This document shows positions 3,168 to 35,708 of a DNA stretch of 64,000 nt, in pieces. The DNA comes from Acidobacteriota bacterium (GTDB lineage Bacteria > Acidobacteriota > Terriglobia > Acidiferrales > UBA7541). The translations under genes were made by a program, and so were the position numbers. Under the pieces are notes generated by a model. The model made no database searches and was not told the DNA's origin. It saw only the letters and a list, made by a program, of their open reading frames with translations. Location: the NCBI GenBank assembly GCA_013289585.1, contig JABCZR010000008.1:1-64000 (forward strand), written 5' to 3'. Each line of letters starts with the position of its first letter. The stretch's first letter is position 1.

Positions 3168-4418
3168 TTAGTTCGCTCGGCGCTTACGACGCAAAAGCCA
3201 GCAATCGTTGTTTGGATCATTGCAGAGCACATAGACATCGAGACTTGGAAAATAATTGAAACGCCCCATAGACCCATGACCGCCGGAGTTCACCCCTTGA
3301 GGGTAGTCGGTGCCCTGGGAACCTCCATAAATTTCTGTTGTGCATTTCCAAGTCTTTGGATCCAGGAGGTATAAAACGTTGCCGGCGTTCGGGTATACCA
3401 CTACCAACTTGTCGATTGGGTCCCAGGCGAGCCCAGGATAGCCCATACCATTATTCATAGCCGAGCAACTGGCATCCAATCCAGGGTTGTTTTGCCCATG
3501 AGATGATCCCATTGCGGTGTTGAAATAAACGATATTCTGACGATCTCCACCGCCTGTTGCGACGTTAATAAAATGCTGGTTTATCGGGTCATGAACCCCT
3601 GTGCCGTGCATGGTATCGCCAACTGGAAGGGCAAATCGCCGTGTCCAGTTATTTGCAATTGGATCATAAGAGTACAGGCCATGGTTTTGGTCATTGGCCC
3701 ACACAAGGTTGTTTACGGTATCATAGGCCATGATGATATCGTAGCCAGACGGAACTTGCGTTGCCGGTGTCCGTTTTGTCCAAACCGGCGTGCAATTCGG
3801 CGCGCAGGAAACACCCACGGAACTAAGAGACAAAGTCCAGGTTCCATCTGTTGAGAATCCACAGTAATTCAACGACCCGCTCTGCGACAGCATCACATCT
3901 TGTTTAGGAAGGAAGGCCAATCCGTCGTAGGTATGTCTGGAATTGGGGCGTCCGTCTGCCAGTGTTTCAACACATTTCGTTGTGTTGTTTGGTGGGCTGG
4001 GGGCGTTGAGTCGAATTAACTCCGGAGGGTTTGTAGACAGTTCTAGAGAATAAATCTCATTTCCCCCGTAGTCAGCATGACCTCCTCCCCAAATGATGAG
4101 CCGGTTTCTGTTAAGGTCGGCAACCGCACTGTTCCAAGCGTTGTATACATTCTGGCAAGAATCCGCATACGAATAGCCGTAACCGTTGAAGTTGTTGGCA
4201 GGACAAGGTGTCGCGTTTTCCGATCCGCCCTTCAACGTTGTGCCCGTCAGCTTTGTCCAACCCGGCGTGGTAGGGAGTTCGGGCGTTCCCCCACCTCCCG
4301 TTTTCTGCGTGACAGTCGATCCCGCATCTTCGGCGATCTTGCCGCGCCCATGAATTATTGCTTGTGTATTCAGTGCTATGCCAGCAAGCAGCAGAATAGA
4401 GCAGGCAGATTTCTTCAT
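3168..4418 (-). CDS. Secreted kelch-like beta-propeller protein
   Basis: I place the start at the ATG at 4418 because it puts a clean signal peptide (MKKSACSILLLAGIAL, then NTQA) at the N-terminus; the frame stays open 12 codons further upstream. The mature protein of about 395 residues shows repeated blade-like segments such as WGGGHADYGGNEIYSL, TYDGLAFLPKQD, GLYSYDPIANNW and GLAWDPIDKLVVVYP, typical of kelch/galactose-oxidase-like propellers. It is rich in Asn, Gly and Cys. No enzyme active site is recognisable, so binding of carbohydrate or protein is the safest guess. It converges on the Ig-repeat gene, with about 217 bases of apparently non-coding DNA between the two stop codons. Confidence 0.8.
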   Translation of the reverse strand: MKKSACSILLLAGIALNTQAIIHGRGKIAEDAGSTVTQKTGGGGTPELPTTPGWTKLTGTTLKGGSENATPCPANNFNGYGYSYADSCQNVYNAWNSAVADLNRNRLIIWGGGHADYGGNEIYSLELSTNPPELIRLNAPSPPNNTTKCVETLADGRPNSRHTYDGLAFLPKQDVMLSQSGSLNYCGFSTDGTWTLSLSSVGVSCAPNCTPVWTKRTPATQVPSGYDIIMAYDTVNNLVWANDQNHGLYSYDPIANNWTRRFALPVGDTMHGTGVHDPINQHFINVATGGGDRQNIVYFNTAMGSSHGQNNPGLDASCSAMNNGMGYPGLAWDPIDKLVVVYPNAGNVLYLLDPKTWKCTTEIYGGSQGTDYPQGVNSGGHGSMGRFNYFPSLDVYVLCNDPNNDCWLLRRKRRAN

Positions 4419-4858
4419 ACTTTGAGGGTATTTCAAACGCGGGCCTTGCGGCAACCAGTAATACCGTTGCTTTCGCGCGCTTAGCCATTTCAGTCACAGG
4501 TCATAAAGCCTTGTTTACATTCTTAGGACAGCTTTACAGTGTCTCGCCGATCAAACCCGTCTATCGGGCGAGCGGCTAGGCTCAGCTGGCCGTGTGTCGT
4601 TCTTCCCTATTGTCACCCGATTGAAGACTGAGACTTGAACGGGTCAGTTACCAATCTCCAGTCCTACCAGACCGTGCCTCTAAAGGTTATGGCGGGAGAA
4701 GGGATGAAGTGATGGATACGGCTGGATATGCGGCCAGTTGGCAGGCCTCAGGAAAAACAGTGCAGTATGAAGGCATTTGTGTTCCATGGCATAAGACTAC
4801 TCGTGTTATGGCGATGGCTTGAAATACTGTAAATAATAGAGTTATTTGGAACTGTTAT
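4419..4858. other. Non-coding stretch upstream of the PEP-CTERM mini-frame
   Basis: About 440 bases with no frame that looks like a protein. It must contain the promoter of the leftward kelch-like gene, but I could not place convincing -35/-10 boxes. The right end leads into the sigma-54-like site at 4859. Confidence 0.5.
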
Positions 4859-4874
4859 TGGCATGTGAAATGCA
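4859..4874 (+). promoter_or_regulatory. Sigma-54-type -24/-12 promoter candidate
   Basis: The sequence TGGCATGTGAAATGCA has the obligatory GG-N10-GC spacing and matches TGGCACG-N4-TTGCA at all but two positions. The predicted transcription start falls near 4885, directly before the PEP-CTERM mini-frame. Matches with two mismatches are expected a few times by chance in 64 kb, so position and orientation carry much of the weight. Confidence 0.5.
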
Positions 4875-4886
4875 CATTACAGGTGC

Positions 4887-5051
4887 ATGATCATGGGAAG
4901 CCCAGTTTCCGAGCCCGGCAGTTTGTTGCTGCTGGGTGTCGCCTCGCTTGCTACATCCTTGGTTCTGCGCCGGGTCTTAAGGGGCCTGGTTCGAGCATTT
5001 AGTCCTACTGCGAAGGTTGACCTTCACACACAGGCAAATCTAGCCAAGTAG
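4887..5051 (+). CDS. Orphan PEP-CTERM-like sorting tail (54 codons, possible remnant)
   Basis: This short frame reads M-I-M-G-S, then PVSEPGSLLLLG, a hydrophobic stretch ending LATSLVL, and a basic cluster RRVLRGLVR, followed by about 20 further residues. That is the order of a PEP-CTERM sorting signal (xEPGS motif, transmembrane helix, Arg-rich end), the substrate tag of exosortases. There is no signal peptide and no protein body before it, so on its own it could not be a normal sorted protein. It is either what remains after an internal deletion of a PEP-CTERM gene or a very small peptide. A sigma-54-like promoter lies 13 bases upstream, which leaves almost no leader. The next annotated gene to the right is the leftward deacetylase of the exopolysaccharide locus. 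Confidence 0.5.
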   Translation: MIMGSPVSEPGSLLLLGVASLATSLVLRRVLRGLVRAFSPTAKVDLHTQANLAK

Positions 5052-5496
5052 ACTGGTTACGTCCTTATCTTCCCCCTACCCGCGTTCATAAGATTGGGTC
5101 GGTGAATTGACCGAACCTGAGTCAGGCAAACCCTTGCGGGGTTTGGTTAGAATTGCGCGGCGACTTCGGCCTCCGAATTTTACCAAGCGTTGGGATCCAG
5201 CTGCTCTTGCTTCCAGCATTTTTGGACTCCGCCCCCGGATCCTTGACCTCGATCAGCGAACGGACCAATTCCCTGGTTTAAGAACTCGCTTTTTTCGGGC
5301 TGTCGAACAACTCACTGCACGCTCCTGCACTGATCCAAACAAAGTCGCGCCAATTCCACAGGTGAAGCGGATGGATTGAACTAAGCCACATCTATCCAAA
5401 ACAGCGCACCTAGAAATGACATGAGGAAGCTCCCCGGGAGCCAACCAAGAGCGAGCGCCAAAATCCTTCCGTCTCACTTCGTTTGCTGTAGTCAGT
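5052..5496. other. Non-coding stretch
   Basis: About 445 bases between the PEP-CTERM mini-frame and the stop of the deacetylase gene. A 90-codon open frame with a TTG start (5107-5379) has no recognisable domain or ribosome site and is treated as chance. I see no clear terminator for the leftward operon here. Confidence 0.4.
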
Positions 5497-6687
5497 CTAT
5501 GTCTCGAATTTATGTAAAGCATCACCTGCAAAGGCTGAGGCTGCAGGGGAAAGTGTCGCTGCAGCGTTGGCTCCTGCAGAGAGATAGAGTTGATTCAATT
5601 TGAACGCAAACATAGAGACAGATCGTTCGTTTACAACTTGTGTGCGACGTAACTCGTACAGGTTTCCTCCCGGCGTATTGGTGCCCTCAACAGTTGTGGC
5701 CGCTGAGCGATAGCCGAGGCGGGCCAGAACGGGAAGGGCGGCTTTCCCACAGTCCCCCGGCTGGCCAAAGGGAAATGCAAAGTGCCGCATGGGGCTTCCA
5801 ATTCGCTGTTCCAAGAGCTGTTTGGATTCTGTAAGTTCGCTTTCTAATTGTGCTGCTGTCAGTTGGCTGACGACAGGATGCGTCATCGTGTGCGATCCGA
5901 AACTGATCCCTGCACGACACATGACTCCGATTTGATCCCAAGTCAGCATGCGCTCGTTCAGTTCCTCGCTTGGCAGAATCACTTGCTTTTCCAGGCTCTG
6001 ACAATGCTCTTTACGCAGCCAATCAGGGAGGGTTCTCAAATACTGCATAATTTCTGCCGCCGCTTGCAGCCTCGTCTCGCGTGAAACAAGCCGGAATCTC
6101 CGGGGACGATCAAGAGTAATCTCCAACTCGTCCTCTGGGAAAACCCTGAGCGTCAGAAAAATCCGGTCATACCAGGGTACCTCGCCTGTTTCGATGCACG
6201 CTGCCGGCAGAAAAATCGTGGCTGGAATCTGGTAGTTCTGCAAAACAGGCAGAGCGTGAGTGAAGAGATCACGATATCCATCGTCAAACGTAACTGCAAT
6301 GGCCTGCCCGTCCTTCCCGGGTTCTTCCATCTCTTCGCAAAGTTCATCGAGAGAGAGCACTCGATACCGACGCCGTAGAAATCGTATCTGTTCCTCAAAA
6401 ATCTCGGCCGGTAGTTCGCTGAACAGGGGAATCCCACCCGTTCCGATCCGGTGATAACACAAAACTGCAAACTTTGCCCGCGCGGATCGGCGGAAGTATT
6501 GCCTCTCCCCAGGATTCCCCGGCACAATTTCATAGTGACGAGAAATGGCCTGAACAACCCTGAGCGCACCCGAGTGATAGAGACCCGCCGCCACGGCTCC
6601 TTGCCACCCTGGCCGGGGCTTGGCATCGCCTTCCCTTGAAGCTCCGCGAGCCACGGAATCTTTCGATCGTCGAGATTCAGCGTACAC
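5497..6687 (-). CDS. Polysaccharide deacetylase, NodB type, exosortase-locus family
   Basis: The protein removes N-acetyl or O-acetyl groups from a glycan. The NodB fold is shown by TFDDGYRD (catalytic/metal Asp pair) near residue 135, SHTMTHP (metal His pair) near residue 265 and FAFPFG further on. The length of 396 residues includes an N-terminal extension of about 70 residues. The GTG start overlaps the end of the upstream amidotransferase gene by 11 bases, so the two are probably translated together. It is the last gene of the leftward exopolysaccharide operon. Deacetylases of this type are standard members of XrtA/EpsH1 loci, where they act on the secreted polymer. No signal peptide is obvious, so its cellular location is not settled by sequence. 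Confidence 0.88.
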   Translation of the reverse strand: MYAESRRSKDSVARGASREGDAKPRPGWQGAVAAGLYHSGALRVVQAISRHYEIVPGNPGERQYFRRSARAKFAVLCYHRIGTGGIPLFSELPAEIFEEQIRFLRRRYRVLSLDELCEEMEEPGKDGQAIAVTFDDGYRDLFTHALPVLQNYQIPATIFLPAACIETGEVPWYDRIFLTLRVFPEDELEITLDRPRRFRLVSRETRLQAAAEIMQYLRTLPDWLRKEHCQSLEKQVILPSEELNERMLTWDQIGVMCRAGISFGSHTMTHPVVSQLTAAQLESELTESKQLLEQRIGSPMRHFAFPFGQPGDCGKAALPVLARLGYRSAATTVEGTNTPGGNLYELRRTQVVNERSVSMFAFKLNQLYLSAGANAAATLSPAASAFAGDALHKFET

Positions 6688-32110: not shown

Positions 32111-33193
32111 TTAGTCAGCAGAATACGCTGACTTCGCAGTGGTGCGAGCAGGCACGCCTTGGCCGACAGGTGCGGGCTGTACCGCCCGCAGAAACAGACC
32201 CGAATCGCGAATCTTATAGATGAGTGTCCGATAGCTAATCTTCAATGCTTTGGCTGTCTTACGACGGTTCCATTGATTGTCCCGCAGAGCCTCGAGAATG
32301 ACTTTGCGCTCCATCTCACGTATCGCCTCCTTGGCGATGCGTTTTAGAGGAATGGATTCGTGTTCCTGTGAGAGATCGGTCGCGCTCGTCTGACGTCCAT
32401 GCGTGTTCAGGATGATAGCCGCCTCCGGCCCGATCAATACGTAACGTGCAATCGCATTCGACAGTTCGCGCATATTCCCCGGCCAATTCAGATTCTGCAA
32501 GAAATTGAGTATCTCGCTATTAAGCGGGTCAGATTTTTTCACAAATTGTTTCTCGTACGAGGTACGCAAGTATTCTGCGAGCAGCGGAATATCTTCTCTC
32601 CGCTCACGGAGCCGCGGCAATCTCAGTTGGAAGACACTAATTCGATAAAATAAGTCAGCGCGGAATCTGCCCGCCTTGATTTCCCGATCCAACTCCCGAT
32701 TTGTGGAACAGATAAAGCGCGTATTTATAGTTCTTTCCGTTTCGTCGCCAAGGCGTGAAAAACAGCCGTCCTGCAGAAAGTGCAGCAGTTTACTTTGTGA
32801 ACTTAGACCGAGGTTAACGATTTCATCTAGGAACAACGTGCCACGGTGAGCAAGCTCGACGCGCCCTGGTTTCGAACTATGAGCTCCCGTAAACGCGCCT
32901 TTTTCGTACCCGAATAGTTCACTTTCGAACAAACTTTCCGGAATGGCGGCACAGTTTACTTTTACAAACTGTCCAGAGCGGTAGATAGAATGTGAATGAA
33001 TCCACCGAGCCACCGTCTCCTTACCTGTTCCTGCCTCTCCACACAACAGAACGGGGACGTCGGTTTGGCAAATCTTGTCGGCCCGCCTACGCACGAGCGC
33101 CAATGCCGGAGAGAGGCCAAACAGGACATCGTCTGGCGGCAAATCATCAATCGCGTCAACATTCTTGTGGTTGTCTACTTTTTCGAAAGCCAT
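32111..33193 (-). CDS. Sigma-54 transcription activator without receiver domain
   Basis: A bacterial enhancer-binding protein with an AAA+ domain and Fis-type helix-turn-helix. Walker A is GEAGTGKE, the sigma-54 contact loop is GAFTGA, Walker B is GTLFLDEI, and the HTH near the C-terminus is NQWNRRKTAKALKISYRTLIYKI. The first 25 residues hold no sensor, so activity may be set by expression level or by another protein. The start at 33193 is favoured: a sigma-54-like site at 33225-33240 would start transcription near 33213, inside the longer open frame that begins at 33283. Length is 360 residues. Confidence 0.88.
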   Translation of the reverse strand: MAFEKVDNHKNVDAIDDLPPDDVLFGLSPALALVRRRADKICQTDVPVLLCGEAGTGKETVARWIHSHSIYRSGQFVKVNCAAIPESLFESELFGYEKGAFTGAHSSKPGRVELAHRGTLFLDEIVNLGLSSQSKLLHFLQDGCFSRLGDETERTINTRFICSTNRELDREIKAGRFRADLFYRISVFQLRLPRLRERREDIPLLAEYLRTSYEKQFVKKSDPLNSEILNFLQNLNWPGNMRELSNAIARYVLIGPEAAIILNTHGRQTSATDLSQEHESIPLKRIAKEAIREMERKVILEALRDNQWNRRKTAKALKISYRTLIYKIRDSGLFLRAVQPAPVGQGVPARTTAKSAYSAD

Positions 33194-33224
33194 GACTCGG
33201 TAATGGTCTTGACATAGAGGGAGA

Positions 33225-33240
33225 TGCACCCGGCAGGCCA
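33225..33240 (-). promoter_or_regulatory. Sigma-54-like promoter candidate before the stand-alone activator
   Basis: On the minus strand TGGCCTGCCGGGTGCA has GG-N10-GC spacing and three mismatches to the consensus. It lies about 30 bases before the ATG at 33193. If real, the activator would control its own gene. Sites with three mismatches are common by chance. Confidence 0.3.
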
Positions 33241-33579
33241 TTACAAGCTCATGGATGAAGATCCGATCGAAGGCGAGGATCAAACGTAAGCTGTTTGTTT
33301 ACAGATAGAAGCGTGAAGATGCTCGCGCCGTCTCGCGGGTACCAGGACCGCGCTGGCTTGTTCTTGACTTGCCTCTTAGAGGAAAATTGTCTCCGAACTT
33401 TGCCAATATTTTCCTCCAGCACGCGCCTAGACTAGACCCACTAATCCACAGATAATGGCGACACTATTGATAACCCATGTACTGCGAACGTAGGAAGAAT
33501 ACTGGAAAAGCAGGGAGAAACAAGAACGGCAAACGCTCTACGCAAAGGCCAACGACTGAGCAGAACCCTAGGGGTGAAT

Positions 33580-34280: not shown

Positions 34281-35708
34281 CTATTCGGCTACTGGTACCA
34301 CGTCAGCCCGCCTCGCCCGCGGCGTGTCCAGGTTAAACTGCCTCATCTTGTAGAGCAGCGCCTTGTAACTGATCCCCAGCATTTTTGCCGCATCTTTTCT
34401 GCACCACCGGGTTTTTTCCAGGGCGTCGGCAATGGCTTCCATCTCCGCCTCGTCCTTCAAACCGCGCACCAGCGCCTTCAATCCCTGTGCCCTTGGCGGG
34501 GGGGCTTCTTCACGCGGAGAAGTCCGCTGGCGCGTCGAGGACATCTCCACCAGTTCGCGCAGACTGCCTTCGTCATCTTCCAGAATCACGTACCGCTTCA
34601 CGAAGTTCTCGAGTTCTCGCAAGTTTCCCGGCCACGGATAATTCACCGCGGCATCCAACAGATATTTCGATGGTCCCGGCGGTGTCTTCCCGAACTTCTC
34701 GCTGTACTTCTCCAGGAAATGCCGGAAAAGTAGCGGGATCTCCGCCGTTCGCTCTCGCAGCGGCGGCACGTTGATGGACAGCACGTTCAACCGGTAGTAA
34801 AGATCTTCGCGAAACTTTCCCGTCTTCATCGCTTCCTGCACGTCCACATTGGTCGCGGCAAGCACGCGAACGTCTGTCTCCACCAGGTGCCGCCCTCCGA
34901 GTCGCGAATACTGGTGATCCTGGAGCACGTGCAGCAGCTTCGCTTGCAGGTGCGTGCTCATTTCCGCAATTTCATCCAGGAAAATCGTGCCCTTGTTGGC
35001 CAGTTCAAACTTGCCCGGCTTGCTGCGCACCGCGCCCGTAAACGCCCCCTGCTCGAAACCGAATAGTTCCGACTCCAGTAGCTCGCCCGGCAACGCCGCA
35101 CAGTTCACTTTGATGAACTGCTGGTTCCGGCGCTTCGATCGCAAGTGAATCATTCGCGCCACAACTTCTTTTCCCACCCCGCTCTCACCGCAAATAAAAA
35201 CCGGAACGTCCACCGGCGCGATCTGCAGGATTTGCTGCCGGATTCGCACCATCTGCGGGCTCGCCGCCAGAAAGCTCAAATCCTCGGTGATCTGGTCGCA
35301 GTAGTCGCGCAGCGCCTGATTCTCCGTCGTCAGCTCTTTTTTCTGCCGCGACTTCAGCATCGCGGCGTCCAATTCCGTTTTCTCGAACGGCTTCGTCAAA
35401 TAATCGTGCGCCCCCAGGCGGATCGCCTCCACCACCGTGCCCACCTCGTTCGAGCAGGAAAGCATGATCACGTTCATGCTGCGGTCGATCTGCATCATTT
35501 CTTTCAGCGTCTCTATGCCGTTCTTCTCCGGCATCAGCACATCCAGGATGATGAAGTCAGGGCGTTCGCCCTTGTTCACCTTCTCCAGCGCCTCTTTGCC
35601 CGAACTCACCGTCTCAACGTCGAATCCGTCCACTTCCAGAAGCGTCTGCAGATATTTTCGAATGCTCGGCTCGTCGTCGACGACGAGAATTTTTTCTTTC
35701 ACGGCCAT
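34281..35708 (-). CDS. Sigma-54-dependent response regulator (NtrC/PrsR type)
   Basis: A three-domain regulator of 475 residues. The receiver has the phospho-acceptor Asp56 in FIILDVLMP and Lys in YLTKPF. The AAA+ domain has [14 protein letters not shown] and GTIFLDEI. The Fis-type HTH is [23 protein letters not shown]. It is preceded by a histidine kinase gene with a gap of 36 bases, so they are a pair. Response regulators of this build (PrsR) control PEP-CTERM and exopolysaccharide genes through sigma-54 in other bacteria. The strong sigma-54-like sites at 22950 and 60830 and the one at 4859 are candidate targets. Confidence 0.92.

Follow-up and report, generated by a model that had tools for sequence, protein, structure and literature searches.

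The closest described counterparts of the locus studied here are the genes of the XrtA/EpsH exosortase system, whose PEP-CTERM proteins have sigma-54 promoters (Haft 2006, PMC1569441), and pepA of Aquincola tertiaricarbonis, a PEP-CTERM gene with a sigma-54 promoter in an exosortase system (PMC9850573). According to Haft 2006 (PMC1569441), the -24/-12 motif of proteobacterial PEP-CTERM genes ends a mean of 71 nt, and a minimum of 23 nt, before the start codon, and among the species discussed there the shared promoter motifs were seen only in Proteobacteria. Within the acidobacterial window analyzed here (the whole stretch of DNA, 64,000 nt), we found a 54-codon frame that resembles these genes in part. 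Like them, it carries a tail with an EP motif, a helix, and an Arg cluster, and a -24/-12 element lies directly upstream; like XrtA/EpsH systems, its genome encodes XrtA and PrsT. Unlike the XrtA/EpsH PEP-CTERM proteins, the focal frame has no signal peptide and no body, its C terminus is unusually long, and its promoter is separated from the ATG by 12 nt, whereas in those genes the distance is 23 nt or more. We think it somewhat probable that the locus is a promoter–tail fusion left behind by an internal deletion in an ordinary sigma-54-driven PEP-CTERM gene. The features on which the argument turns are collected in Table 1.

Table 1. Features of the focal locus, with positions counted from the first letter of the window.
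Feature	Positions	Strand	Remarks
GGAAAA, candidate enhancer (activator-binding) hexamer	4751..4756	+	Exploratory; precedes the -24/-12 site by 108 nt
Sigma-54 -24/-12 promoter element TGGCATGTGAAATGCA	4859..4874	+	GG-N10-GC spacing; 10/12 consensus positions
Predicted transcription start	4885..4887	+	12 nt after the -12 C, sigma-54 geometry; leader 0-2 nt
54-codon ORF with PEP-CTERM tail, without signal peptide or protein body	4887..5051	+	Reads MIMGSPVSEPGSLLLLGVASLATSLVLRRVLRGLVRAFSPTAKVDLHTQANLAK
PEP-CTERM sorting domain: SEP motif, hydrophobic helix GSLLLLGVASLATSLVL, Arg cluster	4902..4973	+	PF07589 over cut-off
Polysaccharide-deacetylase-like gene	5497..6687	-	Deacetylase similarity under the models' cut-offs; edge of XrtA-type exopolysaccharide locus

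Residues 6-29 of the focal frame matched the Pfam model PF07589 with 22.5 bits, above its cut-off of 20.7 (E = 1.2e-4), and when this model was run over the whole genome the focal place was recovered with E = 9.7e-4. The corresponding NCBIfam model, TIGR02595, gave 15.7 bits, just below its cut-off of 16, and when run over the whole genome at E <= 0.001 it listed one other place and not the focal frame. As a control, PF07589 was applied to 14 genomes; at a lax threshold (E <= 5), some match appeared in 13 of the 14 but none was over the cut-off, and at E <= 0.01 there were no matches in any of them, which makes a chance frame an unlikely source of the focal tail. An accidental hydrophobic frame that happens to resemble a PEP-CTERM tail could account for the TIGR02595 results and for the lack of conservation of the focal DNA or frame in 60 relatives, but the genome-wide PF07589 value and the absence of any control genome over the cut-off, together with the promoter described below, argue against such an accident, and we consider it very unlikely. 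Judged by these sequence comparisons, the tail most likely reflects real homology rather than a chance hydrophobic run.

The helix of the tail reaches a maximum mean hydropathy of 2.04 over 17 residues. Ahead of the focal ATG, the reading frame is open for six codons only and is then closed by a TGA inside the promoter site. No N-terminal signal peptide was found when the focal frame was judged by reading, the ATG being followed directly by the tail linker; the other three PEP-CTERM ORFs of this genome begin with stretches that read, by eye, as signal peptides. The earlier note had described an orphan PEP-CTERM tail lacking both signal peptide and protein body, and this description agrees with the Pfam score and with our reading of the frame. 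Its further statement that the frame consists almost only of a sorting tail had to be given up: half of its residues (27/54) are located from the first Arg onward, so the frame holds more than the tail. Measured from the E of the motif to the stop codon, the focal tail spans 46 residues; among 67 tails, no other exceeds 35 residues, and the median is 26. The residues GSPV ahead of the motif are similar to linker residues in a longer PEP-CTERM frame from the class sample (L149, AGSPVPEPGSLALLG), where AGSPVPEPGS corresponds to GSPVSEPGS in the focal frame.

Sigma-54 needs a GG and a GC 10 nt apart, and the consensus against which we scored sites was TGGCACG-N4-TTGCW (12 positions). The focal site reads TGGCATG-TGAA-ATGCA, with 10 nt from GG to GC, and with this exact spacing and its score it bears out the sigma-54-like promoter that had been proposed ahead of the tail. 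Its distance from the start codon is abnormal. The 12 nt between the end of the site and the ATG are the shortest gap among 24 genes of the genus with such a site, the other 23 having gaps of 30-143 nt to the first start, where first starts were taken mechanically as the first ATG, a choice that is probably wrong in, for instance, L098 and L121. In two further genes outside these 24, L106 and L119, the first ATG lies 6 and -12 nt from the site and the second ATG 57 and 45 nt from it. In sigma-54 promoter geometry, the transcription start is taken 12 nt after the -12 C; on this basis, the focal mRNA would start at about 4885, two bases ahead of the AUG, and would be nearly leaderless. A leader of the predicted 0-2 nt leaves no ribosome-binding site. 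The sequence AGGTG at 4881-4885 could help a second ATG at 4893, if transcription began farther upstream than predicted. A scan returned no sigma-70-like promoters and one terminator-like site, no more than in shuffled sequence, and a search of Rfam gave a single match (E = 0.25) below the gathering score.

The same type of promoter recurs before other PEP-CTERM genes. In the genome to which the window belongs, the four PEP-CTERM tails, of which C18:12923 falls below the Pfam cut-off and the other three exceed it, are each preceded by a sigma-54-like site that starts 28-108 nt before the first ATG; the looser site pattern was written after all four sites had been read, so this 4/4 is partly by construction. 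On the 12-position scale, the four sites score 10, 9, 9, and 8. A fifth, spurious PF07589 match in this genome (E = 1.66) has neither an EP motif nor such a site. Across the genus, a site scoring at least 9/12 was present within 170 nt before 24 of 58 testable PEP-CTERM genes (the four of this genome included), or 23 of 57 when the focal frame is left out, compared with 2/58 reversed regions and 1/58 on the other strand. More than half of the genes (34/58) had no site at this score. A wider set of 63 gave 24 regions with a site at the same threshold versus 3 reversed regions, 1 on the other strand, 3/63 regions taken farther upstream, and 1.5 on average when the sequences were shuffled with their composition kept.

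A single site proves little, since the looser pattern occurs 353 times on the two strands of the 4.73-Mb genome versus 260 times when read backwards. Sites scoring at least 10/12 within 170 nt were found in 2/63 reversed regions, 1/63 regions on the other strand, and 0/63 regions farther upstream, and of 35 other ORFs in the window two had a site of at least 9/12 upstream and one a site of at least 10/12. These background rates leave room for a gene that decayed without any promoter fusion, its body having decayed or moved, with the sigma-54-like site standing there by chance or belonging to another element; the genome's lack of a PrsR-type activator at the cut-off would fit this account as well. 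It is difficult to reconcile with the recurrence of the same promoter type at 4/4 tails of the genome and with the orientation of the focal site, which is on the correct strand and points into the tail, and we regard it as quite unlikely.

The earlier note had placed the tail beside an exosortase-type exopolysaccharide locus with no exosortase in view. This holds for the annotated part of the window, where none was found, but not for the genome, which encodes exosortase A (TIGR03109) on another contig at C18:6062-7735 with 299.7 bits (cut-off 208); an EpsI domain is present in the same frame (105.1 versus a cut-off of 42.8), and the genome also has a PF09721 exosortase match over the cut-off. 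Beside exosortase A on this contig are a PEP-CTERM gene over the cut-off, the PrsT TPR protein (TIGR02917; C18:9480-12065; 338.2 versus 312.2), and a second PEP-CTERM-like gene under the cut-off. The note had suggested that a genome devoid of exosortase and of other PEP-CTERM proteins would speak against its proposal; the search turned up exosortase A and PrsT as well as three further PEP-CTERM tails (two over the Pfam cut-off, one under it), and the proposal survives at this level.

Adjoining the focal frame, an XrtA-type exopolysaccharide locus runs from 5497 to about 29592 and makes up the glycan-related half of an exosortase-A locus. Six models of the XrtA set were matched over their cut-offs in it (TIGR03108, TIGR03087, TIGR03019, TIGR03007, TIGR03013, and TIGR03098), and five were matched under their cut-offs (TIGR03088, TIGR03018, TIGR03015, TIGR03027, and TIGR03099). 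The deacetylase-like gene at the near edge of this locus had matches at E <= 1e-20 in 7 of 41 genomes, its own included; the closest, in G005, is 48% identical, and the other five are 29-40% identical. By reading, no PEP-CTERM gene adjoins the G005 gene, its nearest relative. A scan of genome contigs added two distant relatives of the deacetylase, with 28 and 34% identity. On the other side of the focal frame, the gene at 3168-4454 matched 2 of 36 genus genomes, its own included, and the matching pieces in G005 lie at a contig start. As a separate observation, one genome of the comparison (G021) had 17 PEP-CTERM matches and an exosortase match only below the cut-off (16.8 bits); because that genome is 77% complete, a gap in the assembly may be enough to explain the missing exosortase.

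Sigma-54-like sites stand before many PEP-CTERM genes of the genus and, unlike PrsK/PrsR-controlled systems, the genome of the focal frame has no PrsR or PrsK over the cut-off: the best match to PrsR (TIGR02915) scored 440.4 versus a cut-off of 502.6, and the best match to PrsK (TIGR02916) scored 106.2 versus 300. At E <= 1e-60, the PrsR model matched 18 places in this genome, which are sigma-54 activators judging by the part matched. Two sigma-54-activator-like genes are located near the exopolysaccharide locus on the - strand (32111-33283 and 34281-35708), with sub-cut-off scores of 275.3 and 378.8 bits against the PrsR model; we note them as candidate regulators of the PEP-CTERM promoters. 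One feature of the PrsK/PrsR regulon is a motif 1, ending in TTTACA, that lies 32-92 nt upstream of the sigma-54 site. When we looked for the TTTACA end only, in both orientations within 160 nt, TGTAAA was present at -31 in the focal region, and none of the other three promoters of the genome had a match. In an exploratory search, GGAAAA or its complement TTTTCC was present within 170 nt upstream of the site in 19 of 36 promoters scoring at least 8/12 (the focal promoter included), versus a mean of 3.5 and a maximum of 9 in shuffles that preserve base composition only and 6/35 regions farther upstream. Overlapping data had been inspected before this hexamer was selected, and two promoter pairs within this count (L110/L119 and L144/L145) look closely related. 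We take the hexamer as a lead for a possible activator site and not as a result.

We looked for a counterpart of the focal DNA and for the gene from which it might have been derived. The focal DNA had no counterpart in 60 relatives, and the whole focal frame was found in none of them; at E <= 1, 32 had weak partial matches, the best with E = 0.001. In a sample of the class, the frame was matched at E <= 0.005 in 5 of 399 genomes, its own included. Of the four other matches, L003, L148, and L149 could be read in context and proved to be tails that belong to longer PEP-CTERM frames, L150 did not match the reading pattern, and a whole-frame homolog was absent among the other 398 sampled class genomes. 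A separate scan of genome contigs returned no relative of the focal frame, and no full-length ancestral gene was found in the relatives or in the class sample searched. With 66 PEP-CTERM frames as tblastn queries, no remnant of a body was found in 4300-5600 (a 1301-base target). The best two matches outside the tail in this interval, by L141 (about 5263-5361, E = 0.007) and by L127 (about 4442-4558, E = 0.032), each came from one protein against the 1301-base target and were taken as chance. An upstream in-frame stretch beginning at about 4767 (MKAFVFHGIRLLVLWRWLEIL) was rejected as a signal-peptide remnant on account of two stops before the tail and of Arg and Glu in its core. A single C-terminal frameshift was also rejected as the cause of the long extension, as the other frames give no basic cluster.

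Body-less PEP-CTERM genes do occur elsewhere. One is in the same genome (C24:78969; L040:2446-2670) and encodes 74 residues that read as a signal peptide, about 12 further residues, and a tail with a PQP variant of the motif; like the focal frame, it has a sigma-54-like site upstream. Two more are arranged in tandem in another genome (G047:C138; L089; 38914 and 39111), downstream of a longer PEP-CTERM gene, and encode 58 and 57 residues that comprise a signal peptide (by reading), a few residues, and near-identical tails; no sigma-54-like site was found within 400 nt of this pair, and its genome gave no PF09721 exosortase match. In all three genes, as in the focal frame, the tail makes up much of the protein and there is no folded body. 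The three differ from the focal frame in that they keep an apparent N-terminal signal peptide.

These genes raise the possibility that the focal frame is itself a working, leaderless mini-substrate. In such a scheme, sigma-54 would produce an mRNA that begins at the AUG or right beside it, and the 54-residue peptide would insert N-out/C-in without a signal peptide. Its SEP motif would then lie on the periplasmic side, open to cleavage or binding by exosortase A. By occupying the exosortase at the time the PEP-CTERM genes are turned on, the peptide would serve as a decoy or as a timing signal. Small YidC-dependent proteins such as the Pf3 coat insert N-out/C-in with a short N-tail devoid of basic residues. 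The focal peptide would be suited to this route, since basic residues are absent from its N-tail (MIMGSPVSE) and four Arg are present in the segment past the helix (RRVLRGLVR), in keeping with the positive-inside rule. The placement of the ATG in the predicted +1 region, the intact frame, the exosortase A of the genome, and the existence of the three body-less genes are also what a functional peptide would lead one to expect. Against this stand the absence of conservation, with no whole-frame homolog in the 60 relatives or the other 398 class genomes, the retention of a signal peptide in every body-less gene observed, and a C-terminal extension that exceeds that of any of the 66 other tails. 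We consider a working mini-substrate unlikely. A more specific proposal goes a step further than the signal-bearing body-less genes: a sigma-54-controlled PEP-CTERM mini-protein with neither leader nor signal peptide would insert by itself in the orientation that exosortase A can use and would serve that enzyme as decoy, primer, or timing signal. This proposal strikes us as quite improbable.

The earlier note had left the choice between an internal deletion that fused the promoter to the tail of a former sorted protein and a new type of very short tail peptide. The elements common to both, the sigma-54 site and the tail, are supported, and the deletion fits best, even though its ancestor was not found and the event is therefore inferred. 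It fits best for four reasons: the site is too near the ATG, there is no leader, there is no signal peptide, and the C terminus is atypically long; the longest-of-67 stretch from motif to stop is also consistent with decay. By this deletion account, the locus would have begun as a PEP-CTERM gene of the ordinary, sigma-54-driven kind. Its leader, ribosome-binding site, signal peptide, and body would then have been lost in an internal deletion, or in a rearrangement with the same effect, which would have brought the intact promoter up against the terminal part of the coding sequence, with the junction somewhere in 4875-4896. The fusion that remains is probably transcribed together with the other sigma-54-driven PEP-CTERM genes and is probably translated poorly or not at all.

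Several observations weigh against the deletion. The tail frame is intact and has kept its helix and Arg cluster, which means that the event would have to be recent or the tail under selection. Short PEP-CTERM genes are not automatically debris, as the body-less but signal-bearing gene C24:78969 illustrates. The relatives hold no full-length ancestor, and 4300-5600 holds no trace of a body. In addition, AGGTG precedes the second ATG, and the first ATGs of L106 and L119 lie as close to their sites as the focal one or closer.

If the focal frame is a relic of this kind, it would indicate that sorting tails and their promoters can outlast the proteins they once served, and it would caution against counting each PEP-CTERM match as a sorted protein. 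If instead the peptide is made, it would represent a minimal exosortase substrate, useful for asking how an exosortase treats its substrates.
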